Assembly: GCA_001443445.1 (NCBI GenBank) | Contig: LDXN01000016.1 | Span: 3,855-46,044, forward strand | DNA length: 42,190 bases | Reading direction: 5' to 3' | Source of the DNA: Candidatus Dadabacteria bacterium CSP1-2 | GTDB taxonomy: Bacteria > Desulfobacterota_D > UBA1144 > Nemesobacterales > CSP1-2 | Shown here: piece after piece, positions 11,989 to 16,803 of the stretch | How the letters are laid out: each line of letters starts with the position of its first letter | Position numbering within the stretch: position 1 is the first letter of the stretch | Notes under the pieces: generated by a model | What the model saw: the letters and a program-made list of their open reading frames with translations, nothing else | Databases searched by the model: none | Told to the model about the DNA's origin: nothing | Program-made: the position numbers and the translations under genes

Positions 11989-12417
11989 ATGGATACGCAG
12001 GAATTTAAAAAACGAGTTTTAAGAGATAATGTTTTTCCCTTCCTAATCCTATTCTTTCTCTTGACTTCTATAGCAGTAGGAGAGGATTATATCGCCCAAC
12101 TAAAGAACGTGGTTGTGTTAAAGGTTTCCGATGAGCAGTTCCAAATTAAGGGTGAAATAGTAAACAATACAGATAAGGAACTAAAGCGCTTCTCTATAAA
12201 ATGTATAATTTATAACCCATCAGGAGAGGTAGTCGAGGAAGACCAGATTCTGCCCTTTGTTATTCCAATCCCACCCCGCGGCAGTTCCCCTTTTTTACTG
12301 CCGATTAGATATAAACCTAATATGGAAAAGTTCACACTTCAGGTAATTAACCTTGTTGGGAAGGAACTAAGTGTTCACACTGGTGGAAAGCCTTTAGAAT
12401 TTAGTGTTCCTAGATAA
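11989..12417 (+). CDS. Membrane-anchored FxLYD-like protein
   Basis: A 142-residue protein with one N-terminal hydrophobic segment (about residues 16-31, VFPFLILFFLLTSIAV) that acts as signal or anchor. The exported part is a single beta-sandwich-like domain: FQIKGEIVNNTDKELKRFSI, then IIYNPSGEVVEED and IPPRGSSPFLLPI. This pattern resembles FxLYD/DUF3426-type domains found on many exported bacterial proteins with unknown binding partners. The start ATG at 11989 lies just after the repeat element and has no clear Shine-Dalgarno sequence. No enzymatic motif is visible. Confidence 0.65.
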   Translation: MDTQEFKKRVLRDNVFPFLILFFLLTSIAVGEDYIAQLKNVVVLKVSDEQFQIKGEIVNNTDKELKRFSIKCIIYNPSGEVVEEDQILPFVIPIPPRGSSPFLLPIRYKPNMEKFTLQVINLVGKELSVHTGGKPLEFSVPR

Positions 12418-12964: not shown

Positions 12965-15340
12965 TCATAGCTTTTTTATTGATTTAGCTACTCCGTTTTC
13001 GACCTCGACTTCAACCTTATTGCAAATAGAAATCCCTTCAAGAAGCTTAGGGTCGATTTTTATTACGTGTTTTTTCAATTTAGCGTCATTAACTGTAATG
13101 GTTCCTGCTTGTGTGTCAATTGACATTATAATTCCAATAATTTTCCCTTGAGTAGACGAGGCAGGACTAGCGATTGCATCCGTACCCGAGCTTGAAGATA
13201 ACCCAACCTGCTGATTAGCACTCACTATTCCATTTGATTCTACTTCTATCAACCTTGATTCTGTTGCCAAATCTATGATCTTCAATCGGTTCTTCAGCTT
13301 TTCATCAAGCCCTAATCGGTCAAATATCAATGGAGATAGGTTTCTAAACCTAAGTCGCACATCAACCTTGAGTGGTCCCTTCGCATCGGGCGGAACTGTA
13401 ATAGGGTAGATTCCTGATCTTGTCTCAAGGGGAGGTATTCCATCTTTAACAAATTTATTTGCCTGACTAGTTAAGAAGACGTCTTCTTCAGTCCCGTCTG
13501 GATTAACTCTAATCATCTCCGACTGAAAGTTGACTAGATATTCATCCAAAGGTGCTGCTTCCAGTTTTACCTCCTGGCTGCAACGGTTACGTAAATCATA
13601 GTTTCCATCCAAGTCACCAGATACAAAAAGCAATTTCCCATCTGAGCCCTTTGCTATTATCTCAACCCATAACTGACGTTCGACAGTAAATCCAGAGGGA
13701 AGGTAGTGCCCCGCACCAACGTTTGTTACATGCACCGCTACTTGAAAATCCGACCCTGTGATTACCGATTTTGGCGCTTCGACCTTCATCTGCGCGCTTG
13801 CTTTATGGAGTTCATAAACCTCCTGCATATATTCCCTCTGAATCCTTTCGGTTTCTGCTGGGTTATTCGGATATGGGAAAAAGTCAACAAGGTGGTAGTC
13901 AACCCCAACCATAGAGTGATTAGAGAGTGGTCTCTCTGGTAAATCAACACCGACCATTATGGCTGCAGTACCCATCACCTTTTTCTGATTAGGTTTGCCA
14001 GGTATTGTCCTCATATGACACTCCTGGCAGGTTATGCCCTTCTTGGCGTAGATGCTGTCTTTCCATTCAGCAAATGTTTCTTCAACCCTGAGTCCTTTGG
14101 GGGTAACAACGTCATGGCAAGATCCGCAAAACTCTGAGGTCTTAAGATAGGTAAATTCCAAGCTCTTATGAAAAGAGTTACGCACCGGTTTAGAATCGCC
14201 ATTAAATCCTGTGCCAAAGATGCCATATTTCGTTCTCCCAGGCTCAAGTGGAAAATCCCCGCTTACAAGCCCGTGGTCTTTTCCAATCGTATGGCAAGAG
14301 TCACACTGGACTCCTAGTACCCCGATAGGGTCTCTTTTATCATTAGGCATAATTGCGTCTTCACCAATTGCAATGCTTACTGGGGCATGACACTTAAAAC
14401 AGAATACCCCGACCTTCCCTTTGCTGTCCTCCTGTACCTTTGCGTTTAGCTCAAAGGCAACAGGGCTTACCTGACCGTATGCGTGCATTGACATTATCCA
14501 CTCATCGTATTGCCTTTGATGGCACTGCCTGCATTCTTGAGGCGATCCAAAATCCGAAGCCGTTGGAGGAAATACCTTAAAGCTATCGTCAAGAATATGT
14601 AGTGGTATCAAAACAATAAGCCCACCAGTCACAACGAGATGCGCAACGAGCCAACCACGAAAAAGCGGTTTATACTTAAGCTGACTCACAGATTGGGCTT
14701 CTAGACTTGCCTTTTGCTCGAGTAAAAGGACCGCCTTTTTAAAATCCTCCTTCTCTTCTTCATGTAAGATCTCACCCTTTGATAAAAGCTCCTCCCAGTA
14801 TTCAGGTTTAGGAGAAAGTGGTGATGGGGTGTTAAGCTCAGAGCCAATTATTTTCTGAAATGGTCTAGACTTTCCTGCCATTAAATCATTTATTGATTTC
14901 TTAACCTCATTCACTTGGGAGATTACTTTATCTTGTTCATTAGCAATTGAGCTAGGAAAGCGTGTGTAGAAGTATCGGCCTACAACTCCAGTAATTATGA
15001 CCAAGGCAAGAAATATCACTGCGGCCGTATTGTAATCCCAACCAAAACGGAACTCAGCGTGCAACGCTATTATGAAAAGTGCCAAGATCCCAAGATATAT
15101 GTGAGCCCAGAGCCAATTATCAAGGCGACCAGGTACCCCTTTAACCACACGTTTACGAAGAGAGTATGTCATCACAAAGAGAATAAGAAGGACTGCTACA
15201 ATACCTAGTAGATAAACAGTTCCCTTTTCCACACCAGGTATAGGTAGGTATGGGGCAAAGCGGTAAACAACCCAAAATATAAACCCAGCTACCAATGTAA
15301 ATAGGGCTAATCTCTTATGCATTTGAGAAATACTACTCAT
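12965..15340 (-). CDS. Membrane dihaem-b-like / pentahaem cytochrome c fusion
   Basis: A 791-residue electron-transfer protein. Five hydrophobic helices (about 11-29, 41-60, 75-97, 104-121, 228-249) carry two His pairs spaced by 14: His80/His94 on helix 3 and His234/His248 on helix 5, the pattern expected for two stacked b haems. Positive residues follow helices 2 and 4, giving N-terminus inside and C-terminus in the periplasm. The exported part has five CxxCH haem-c sites at Cys270, 314, 346, 405 and 438. Beta-rich segments follow, and residues about 732-791 look like a small OB-type domain. A charged loop at 122-227 would face the cytoplasm. The start overlaps the upstream ferredoxin stop (ATGA), with GGGAG eight bases before. 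The role is probably quinone/haem electron transfer; CbcL of Geobacter is an analogy, not an identification. Confidence 0.88.
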   Translation of the reverse strand: MSSISQMHKRLALFTLVAGFIFWVVYRFAPYLPIPGVEKGTVYLLGIVAVLLILFVMTYSLRKRVVKGVPGRLDNWLWAHIYLGILALFIIALHAEFRFGWDYNTAAVIFLALVIITGVVGRYFYTRFPSSIANEQDKVISQVNEVKKSINDLMAGKSRPFQKIIGSELNTPSPLSPKPEYWEELLSKGEILHEEEKEDFKKAVLLLEQKASLEAQSVSQLKYKPLFRGWLVAHLVVTGGLIVLIPLHILDDSFKVFPPTASDFGSPQECRQCHQRQYDEWIMSMHAYGQVSPVAFELNAKVQEDSKGKVGVFCFKCHAPVSIAIGEDAIMPNDKRDPIGVLGVQCDSCHTIGKDHGLVSGDFPLEPGRTKYGIFGTGFNGDSKPVRNSFHKSLEFTYLKTSEFCGSCHDVVTPKGLRVEETFAEWKDSIYAKKGITCQECHMRTIPGKPNQKKVMGTAAIMVGVDLPERPLSNHSMVGVDYHLVDFFPYPNNPAETERIQREYMQEVYELHKASAQMKVEAPKSVITGSDFQVAVHVTNVGAGHYLPSGFTVERQLWVEIIAKGSDGKLLFVSGDLDGNYDLRNRCSQEVKLEAAPLDEYLVNFQSEMIRVNPDGTEEDVFLTSQANKFVKDGIPPLETRSGIYPITVPPDAKGPLKVDVRLRFRNLSPLIFDRLGLDEKLKNRLKIIDLATESRLIEVESNGIVSANQQVGLSSSSGTDAIASPASSTQGKIIGIIMSIDTQAGTITVNDAKLKKHVIKIDPKLLEGISICNKVEVEVENGVAKSIKKL

Positions 15341-16803
15341 TGATATTTCTCCCTTTTTGGTATTAAGTCCTCAGTATCCCCAAAATACTCCATCGGATTG
15401 ACCCACTTAATAGAGTTTGTGGGACAGTTGTTGGTACATGCTGTGTCGTAGTAGCCCAAACAGTTGTCACATTTAATAGCCAGATGCTTTGGTTTTATCT
15501 TATGGTCTTTAGGAGTCTTGTTATCACTCTCTTTTGCACCTTTTAATAGGGCGCTTATGATATTAAATTTTTTGAGTTCATGCTCAGGTTTTGAGGGAAC
15601 CATTTGAATTACATTATAAGGGCATCTTATTGCACATCCAGCGCATCCAACGCACTTGTCATCAATTATATTAATCTCACCTGTAGGCGCACGTTTTATG
15701 GCGTCAAAGTTGCAAATAAGGCAAACTGGGTCGTGACACAATCGGCAGGCAACCGGAATAGATACATCGGGAACCCGTGTCCCCCGTCTATCTAAGCGTG
15801 GATAACCGTGCCGGTCCTCACAAGCATCAACACAGTTGTTGCAGTGAATACATGTTTTAAGGTCAATAATAAGAAGGCTCTCTGCTTGAATTATCCCCTT
15901 TTCAACGAGCGTTTGTAACCTTTCAGATTTAGAAGGGTCCTTCTGAACCTTAAGGGTCCTAAGCTTGCGTTCCATAATTATGTCCCCTATCTCCTCAGCT
16001 AGCTTTGAATCAGCATCTAGTAGCATATTGAAATCCTCTTTTAATACCTGAAGGACCTCCACATTTGTAAATGCTGATACAGTGGCGGTTCGCCTCTCAT
16101 CCTCAAGAAGCGCCATCTCGCCAAAGTAGTTACCTTGGGAAAGGTAAGCAATGATCTGCTCTTTATCTAGGTGTTTTTTTGTAATTTTAACAAAGCCCGT
16201 CCTAATTACATATAAAGAGTCCCCTTGATCTCCCTCATTAAATATAATGTCACCAGATTTGTAAGATTTTAGATTTACATCCTTTTCTAATCTTTCCAAT
16301 GTTGATTCATCTAGATTTGAAAAAAGAGGGACTTTTCTAAGATATGTCTTGACTGCTCGCTCAGCATACATAACCTCTATAGCATCCTTAAACCCTGGAG
16401 AATGCTTCATTAAATTCTTGAGCACCTCAGCAGGAATCTCTAGAAGGTAAAGGGCCTCCTTGGCAGACACAGTAGCGCTTCTTGGGTAACCAGAAAGTGC
16501 TGCCATCTCACCGAATATGTTCCCTTCTCCTAGAAGGGCAAGAGTTAGATTCTCATATCCTGCGGTATTTATACTTACCTCAACAGCACCACCTAAGATA
16601 GCAAAAGCTGTATCACCGTACTCCCCTTCTCGGCATATCACAGAACCTGCCTCAAATTGCCTCAGGCTTGATTTTTCAACTAGCCCTTTTAGATCATCAG
16701 ACGAAAGCTGAGAAAAAAGACTCATACTGTTTAATTTCTGTTTAAGAGATTCCAAGTCAATCGTCTTGACCTTCTGGATTTCCATGTTTGACGTTAATCT
16801 CAT
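15337..16803 (-). CDS. Double cyclic-nucleotide-binding protein fused to a four-cluster ferredoxin
   Basis: A 488-residue cytoplasmic protein. Two CAP_ED domains span about residues 29-145 and 159-275. Each keeps the phosphate-binding cassette: FGEM-AAL-GYPRSAT with Glu99 and Arg108, and FGEMALLEDERRTAT with Glu229 and Arg238. The C-terminal half has sixteen cysteines in four groups: 318/321/324/328, 353/356/361/364, 384/387/390/394 and 445/448/456/460. This is the layout of DmsB/PsrB/HybA-type subunits with four 4Fe-4S clusters. There is no Tat signal and no DNA-binding domain. It is translationally coupled to the downstream cytochrome gene. The likely role is a cyclic-nucleotide-controlled electron carrier docking on that protein. 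Confidence 0.9.
   Translation of the reverse strand: MRLTSNMEIQKVKTIDLESLKQKLNSMSLFSQLSSDDLKGLVEKSSLRQFEAGSVICREGEYGDTAFAILGGAVEVSINTAGYENLTLALLGEGNIFGEMAALSGYPRSATVSAKEALYLLEIPAEVLKNLMKHSPGFKDAIEVMYAERAVKTYLRKVPLFSNLDESTLERLEKDVNLKSYKSGDIIFNEGDQGDSLYVIRTGFVKITKKHLDKEQIIAYLSQGNYFGEMALLEDERRTATVSAFTNVEVLQVLKEDFNMLLDADSKLAEEIGDIIMERKLRTLKVQKDPSKSERLQTLVEKGIIQAESLLIIDLKTCIHCNNCVDACEDRHGYPRLDRRGTRVPDVSIPVACRLCHDPVCLICNFDAIKRAPTGEINIIDDKCVGCAGCAIRCPYNVIQMVPSKPEHELKKFNIISALLKGAKESDNKTPKDHKIKPKHLAIKCDNCLGYYDTACTNNCPTNSIKWVNPMEYFGDTEDLIPKREKYQ

Follow-up and report, generated by a model that had tools for sequence, protein, structure and literature searches.

The closest described counterparts of the gene pair studied here, which lies in a 42,190-nucleotide stretch of DNA (hereafter, the window) from Candidatus Dadabacteria bacterium CSP1-2 (contig LDXN01000016.1, positions 3,855 to 46,044) and encodes a ferredoxin with cyclic-nucleotide-binding domains (CNBDs) and a cytochrome b/c membrane protein, come from several directions. 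CbcL-type cytochromes of Geobacter carry, like the window protein, a di-haem b membrane domain fused to a periplasmic multihaem c domain. CbcL is presumably a quinol oxidase and, unlike the window pair, is not known to have a cyclic-nucleotide ferredoxin partner. Moreover, we know of no members of the HycB, HydN or DmsB ferredoxin families with CNBDs, nor of any respiratory electron-transfer complex for which direct switching by a cyclic nucleotide has been demonstrated. Finally, the main text of He et al. (2017) describes a five-helix inner membrane protein (IMP) with two WX3HX13H motifs in the PCC3 and PCC4 porin-cytochrome clusters, guessed by those authors to hold two b haems and to have quinone activity, and reports a pfam13247 iron-sulfur (Fe-S) gene upstream of the IMP gene in PCC4 subgroup II (PMC5566968). 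The explanation that best accounts for our results as a whole, and which we consider probable, is that the two window genes encode a two-subunit inner-membrane electron-transfer complex with cyclic-nucleotide switching.

Both open reading frames (ORFs) are intact, are encoded on the minus strand and, as the preliminary description of this DNA had stated, overlap by ATGA, a stop/start at 15337..15340. The upstream gene (15337..16803) encodes a 488-residue protein with two PF00027 domains (155 bits against a cut-off of 27.5, E 4e-46 in Pfam), four [4Fe-4S] groups matched by Fer4 families and no transmembrane helix, which is predicted to be cytoplasmic. The two cyclic-nucleotide cassettes occupy residues 26-146 (16366..16728) and 150-279 (15967..16356); they had been described as intact, and Arg108 (codon 16480-16482) and Arg238 (codon 16090-16092) do lie within FGE..(P/E)R[ST]AT-type motifs, forming the phosphate-cassette pairs E99/R108 and E229/R238. 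They are followed by a HycB/DmsB-like four-cluster ferredoxin domain (residues 310-470, 15394..15876), in which the sixteen Cys reported earlier fall into four groups (318/321/324/328, 353/356/361/364, 384/387/390/394 and 445/448/456/460). These Cys are invariant across 36 aligned proteins, except that two of the proteins have Val in place of one Cys and that four positions are masked in one protein. The equivalent of C387, the second Cys of the third cluster, is Val in L067 and L066 (genomes G008 and G033), which suggests a 3Fe-4S or otherwise ligated cluster in those proteins. The domain shares its four Cys groups with HycB, HydN and DmsB, and gave weak matches to DmsB, FDH3 beta, HybA and AegA, all NCBIfam matches being far under the curated cut-offs, as well as to HycB3/HycB4 in the Protein Data Bank (PDB). 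PF13247 is not among the Pfam matches of the window protein; it does match three relatives (L021, L006 and L057). By eye, the N-terminus has no twin-arginine motif, in agreement with the earlier claim that the ferredoxin lacks a Tat signal.

The downstream gene (12965..15340) encodes a fused cytochrome b/pentahaem cytochrome c protein of 791 residues. Its five-helix di-haem b domain (residues 1-255, 14576..15340) carries W76-x3-H80-x13-H94 on the third transmembrane helix (TM3), T117GVVG on TM4 and W230-x3-H234-x13-H248 on TM5, so the four histidines previously proposed for a five-helix protein are indeed found in pairs on helices 3 and 5. All four are invariant in an alignment of 15 diverse relatives, which was tested for whether the pattern exceeds chance, and so are both Gly of the TM4 motif. 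The distribution of charge, read earlier in the same way, places the N-terminus, the loop between helices 2 and 3 (with five Lys/Arg) and the loop of about 100 residues between helices 4 and 5 inside, whereas the haem-c domain is placed outside. For the membrane domain, no model in Pfam or NCBIfam scored above its cut-off, the Ferric reductase transmembrane component model (PF01794) reaching 16.7 bits against a gathering cut-off of 28, and the cytochrome b alignment, searched as a profile against the PDB, returned weak, unrelated matches only. The five CxxCH sites that had been counted are located at residues 270, 314, 346, 405 and 438, within a putatively periplasmic c554/ExtKL-like domain (residues 265-455, 13976..14548). 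This domain matches PF13435 (E 1.4e-10), PDB entry 5ze8 (E 1.6e-6) and the ExtKL model NF040886 (E 4.7e-14, 51.8 bits, under the curated cut-off of 250). A second c554-like multihaem protein, 38% identical to the haem-c domain, is encoded elsewhere in the source genome in a 412-residue open frame (L018, G000:C1:5000-5512).

We then compared the pair with the IMP clusters. As presented in the main text of He et al., the IMP has the same five helices, the same WX3HX13H motifs on TM3 and TM5 and the same GxxG on TM4, and PCC4 subgroup II has its pfam13247 Fe-S gene upstream, together with surrounding multihaem c genes (PMC5566968). The window has an Fe-S gene directly upstream, with a 4-nucleotide overlap, but its product is the protein without a PF13247 match. 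The window protein differs in having Thr for Ser in the SGXXG motif and a fused pentahaem c domain, and in the lack of a recognised porin nearby; of the ORFs that surround the pair in the window, none could be recognised as a porin or as one of the three separate periplasmic multihaem cytochromes of PCC4. A further difference is the presence of two cyclic-nucleotide cassettes on the Fe-S protein, which go unmentioned in that main text, where the terms 'cyclic', 'cNMP' and 'FHA' do not occur, although its supplementary domain figures may already show the cassette. The literature searched contained no paper joining CNBDs to a transmembrane redox complex. Hence, the earlier suggestion of a new electron-transfer complex needs to be divided: the membrane module is a known prediction, with an Fe-S neighbour already reported, whereas, as far as we found, there is no description of the coupling to a cyclic nucleotide, of how widely it occurs, of the flavin partners or of the single-chain fusion reported below.

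To what extent the two genes travel together was evaluated in 58 genomes of the window's phylum, in 387 genomes sampled across the domain (among them the eight pair carriers of that phylum) and in all 24 genomes of a second phylum, two of which are also among the 387. Within the window's phylum, both genes are present in eight genomes and adjacent every time, while a ninth matches the periplasmic haem domain only. Across the domain-wide sample, the five-helix cytochrome b adjoins the CNBD-ferredoxin at 17 of 20 loci. For the second phylum, profiles of the two proteins mark an identical set of 15 genomes, with a chance probability of about 8e-7 on the assumption of independent genomes, which related genomes are not, and the cytochrome b gene lies directly downstream on the same strand at 23 of the 24 distinct ferredoxin loci. 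The preliminary description would have been contradicted by genes that rarely co-occur, and these counts are the opposite. A search of genome contigs with the b/c protein yielded one near relative only, from a Candidatus Dadabacteria metagenome-assembled genome (92% identity), and no relative was found in viral contigs. In addition, distance matrices of the cytochrome b and Fe-S proteins are correlated, with r = 0.83 over 30 pairs and 0.93 when only the second phylum is taken; inside a single genome, paralogue groups of both subunits co-segregate. The co-variation is in part due to shared ancestry, which is a harder explanation for the co-segregating paralogues. Moreover, in one genome (G090) a single chain of 660 residues, L104, joins a cNMP_binding domain, an Fe-S ferredoxin and the cytochrome b. 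Overall, the gene pair is not a chance neighbourhood, the claim that the two proteins belong together stands, and we are highly confident that they constitute a real, conserved and probably physical complex.

Evidence on the ligand comes from the cassettes and from the genome around them. Arg108 and Arg238 are both kept in every protein examined from Dadabacteria, Sphingobium and the second phylum (16 proteins in the latter), and the cassette Glu is also kept in these three groups with few exceptions. In the genome to which the window belongs (2.5 Mb), eight class III cyclase domains pass the Pfam cut-off (contigs C15, C6, C24, C28 and C4), and at least three of them show the Asn/Arg motif as well as the two metal Asp. 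This genome encodes only three CNBD proteins, namely the CNBD-ferredoxin, an MscS-like channel and a single-domain protein. No Crp-type DNA-binding helix-turn-helix domain scored over the cut-off in this genome, which is about 92% complete, such that one could be missing. Sphingobium operons hold a gene for a metallophosphoesterase, an SpdA/CpdA-like phosphodiesterase; some records annotate it as CpdA, and its closest match is SpdA, under curated cut-offs. Judged on such sequence features, direct cyclic-nucleotide control is likely for the window lineage. A further observation concerns the closely related genome G008, where a DUF2652 protein with cyclase-like 'LDISGYT' and 'EGDAAF' motifs converges on the b/c gene (L013, 3606-4358).

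The donor and the periplasmic partner vary among relatives, while the core of the module is formed by the cassettes, the four [4Fe-4S] clusters and the five-helix di-haem cytochrome b. The fused pentahaem c domain is a Dadabacteria variant that the window shares with its close relatives; in other lineages a gene of its own encodes the multihaem c protein, which in the second phylum has 8-11 haems and adjoins the pair at most loci. The periplasmic side in G006, G013 and Sphingobium has a forkhead-associated (FHA)-multihaem protein, which possibly corresponds to the forkhead-associated protein with ten haem motifs that was listed among 'other' in a Gallionellaceae pangenome study (PMC10734462). 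In the same three, a thioredoxin-reductase-like flavin domain is fused N-terminally to the module; G033 has FAD-NAD and 2Fe-2S domains as a C-terminal fusion and G349 has them at the N-terminus, and L054 and L055 encode a flavin-FHA-2Fe-2S protein in a gene of its own. The strongest indication of the electron donor is that NAD(P)H-type modules were recruited repeatedly, which points to NAD(P)H or ferredoxin rather than to quinone. PCC3-type relatives next to cytochromes of about 20 haems (L101 and L108-L110) have an Fe-S and thioredoxin-reductase-like partner in place of the CNBD type: a 4Fe-4S flavoprotein encoded beside or near the five-helix cytochrome b (L101, 7788-9098; L108, 3469-4968; L109, 11494-12834; L110, 5441-6769), which is a likely NAD(P)H partner of the PCC3-type conduit. 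He et al., in their main text, compared the HX13H pairs with cytochrome b of bc1 and of hydrogenases (PMC5566968), and if their proposal of quinone activity held here, the quinone pool would be the redox partner of the membrane subunit, leaving the Fe-S protein as an accessory. Given cytoplasmic partners that are Fe-S proteins, or Fe-S proteins with NAD(P)H-type flavin domains, in both the CNBD family and the four PCC3-type clusters whose partner was scanned, we regard this as improbable; furthermore, the L104 fusion argues that electrons enter or leave via the Fe-S protein.

We infer the following course for the complex in the source organism. Low-potential electrons from a cytoplasmic ferredoxin or NAD(P)H-flavoprotein would enter the four [4Fe-4S] clusters of the CNBD-ferredoxin, pass to the cytoplasm-side haem b (His80/His234) and from there to the periplasm-side haem b (His94/His248), and then travel along the five c haems in the periplasm towards another periplasmic acceptor. 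If cyclic AMP (cAMP) or cyclic GMP (cGMP) bound to the two cassettes, the ferredoxin domain would move or be reshaped against the cytochrome b, and the occupancy of the cassettes would thereby switch or tune electron flow without a transcription factor. The same complex could also run inwards, with periplasmic or extracellular donors and help from the membrane potential, reducing ferredoxin or NAD(P)+. PCC3 and PCC4 occur mostly in bacteria from habitats with an Fe(II)-oxidation niche, according to the main text of He et al. (PMC5566968), and porin-sized genes and multihaem proteins stand alongside the pair in relatives L054 and L055; on the other hand, a search of the window's genome found no MtrB/PioB porin, and the direction of electrons is not readable from sequence. 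We consider uptake of this kind possible, if somewhat doubtful.

Coming back to an outward path switched by cyclic nucleotides, several observations weigh against it. Three of the 20 CNBD-ferredoxin loci in the domain-wide sample have no cytochrome b, two of them lying beside aldehyde:ferredoxin oxidoreductase; the window pair has no flavin module; and the failure to find an MtrB/PioB porin counts here as well. The structural model offers a mixed picture. It was built on the closely related G008 pair, with the intergenic stops read through purely as a modelling device and with an alignment anchored on same-frame read-through pairs, from which two Sphingobium plasmid rows were left out. The AlphaFold model reached a mean predicted local distance difference test score (pLDDT) of 79 and a predicted template modelling score (pTM) of 0.55; cassettes and helices are mostly near pLDDT 90, with the tandem cassettes placed with high confidence, but the Fe-S region is weak, at pLDDT of roughly 40-80. 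A single-sequence fold of the L104 fusion gave a pLDDT of 38. Finally, one or both cassette Arg are lost in L054, L055, L057, L061, L063 and the fusion L104, and these losses in six distant members indicate that nucleotide binding is not universal in the family.

The fact that the complex persists in those six members also speaks for cassettes that are structural, serving dimerisation or docking, or that bind another small molecule, in a complex that is real but whose electron flow is not under cyclic-nucleotide control. In a Foldseek search, the tandem cassettes matched the regulatory subunit of PKA (PKA-R) and PKG, with which they share the tandem fold and the FGE...R motifs, while being attached to an electron carrier, which they would control, and not to a kinase; among the structural matches is a nucleoside-bound trypanosome PKA-R, and such folds without use of cAMP exist. 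Nevertheless, Dadabacteria, Sphingobium and the second phylum have retained both Arg, and almost every Glu, through deep divergence, the window's genome has plentiful cyclases and no Crp-type domain over the cut-off, and a CpdA/SpdA-like gene sits within the Sphingobium operon. We therefore find this reading rather unlikely. A Pycsar-like defence effector sensing cCMP or cUMP was considered as well, as the PADLOC models PycTIR and PycC match the CNBDs. The match spans the CNBD only, neither a TIR domain nor an adjacent PycC cyclase was recognised, the window neighbours are unrelated and the partner in relatives is a redox membrane protein. Such an effector would be expected to carry a TIR or other toxic domain beside a PycC cyclase, and we rejected this identity as extremely improbable.

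Given that the two genes are found paired again in distantly related bacteria, it may be that a respiratory electron path is switched by a second messenger without any intermediary. The broadest form of this proposal, a widespread inner-membrane complex that would connect the NAD(P)H/ferredoxin pool to periplasmic multihaem cytochromes and be gated directly by cAMP or cGMP, strikes us as evenly balanced. If it is true, respiration is controlled by a second messenger acting on the protein itself and not via Crp-type transcription, and many uncultured bacteria have a link between second-messenger signalling and the export or uptake of electrons. In that case, extracellular electron transfer of the PCC3/PCC4 type, in which the inner-membrane step is unexplained, would also gain a cytoplasmic partner for that step, consisting of an Fe-S protein and an NAD(P)H-flavin module.

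The remainder of the b/c protein comprises a C-terminal domain (residues ~520-690, 13271..13783), of which residues 533-572 align weakly with MccSep (9wt8, E 0.072), and about 87 additional C-terminal residues (12968..13228) that the close relatives G001-G003 have and G008 and G033 lack. In that weak alignment, the b/c protein has Phe at the MccSep residue printed X, which we read as the selenocysteine of MccSep. The likeness to ExtKL, c554 and MccSep, seen in the five-haem domain and in this stretch, is accompanied by two differences, namely the Phe and the attachment to a cytochrome b. At two of the loci lacking cytochrome b, the CNBD-ferredoxin gene is divergent from the aldehyde:ferredoxin oxidoreductase gene (L056, 2158-3597; L058, 6900-8378), a second use of the CNBD-ferredoxin fusion. 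A promoter and terminator scan gave an uninformative signal, below the shuffle expectation. Upstream of the pair and divergent from it, the window encodes a bacterial-like globin (PF01152; 18576-19016, plus strand) with an apparent signal peptide by eye, exported truncated globins being unusual. On the other side, a small exported-looking protein without a Pfam match (11989-12417, plus strand) converges on the b/c gene, and its homologues are kept beside the b/c gene in G001 and G003 (L010, 912-1397; L068, 6164-6595).

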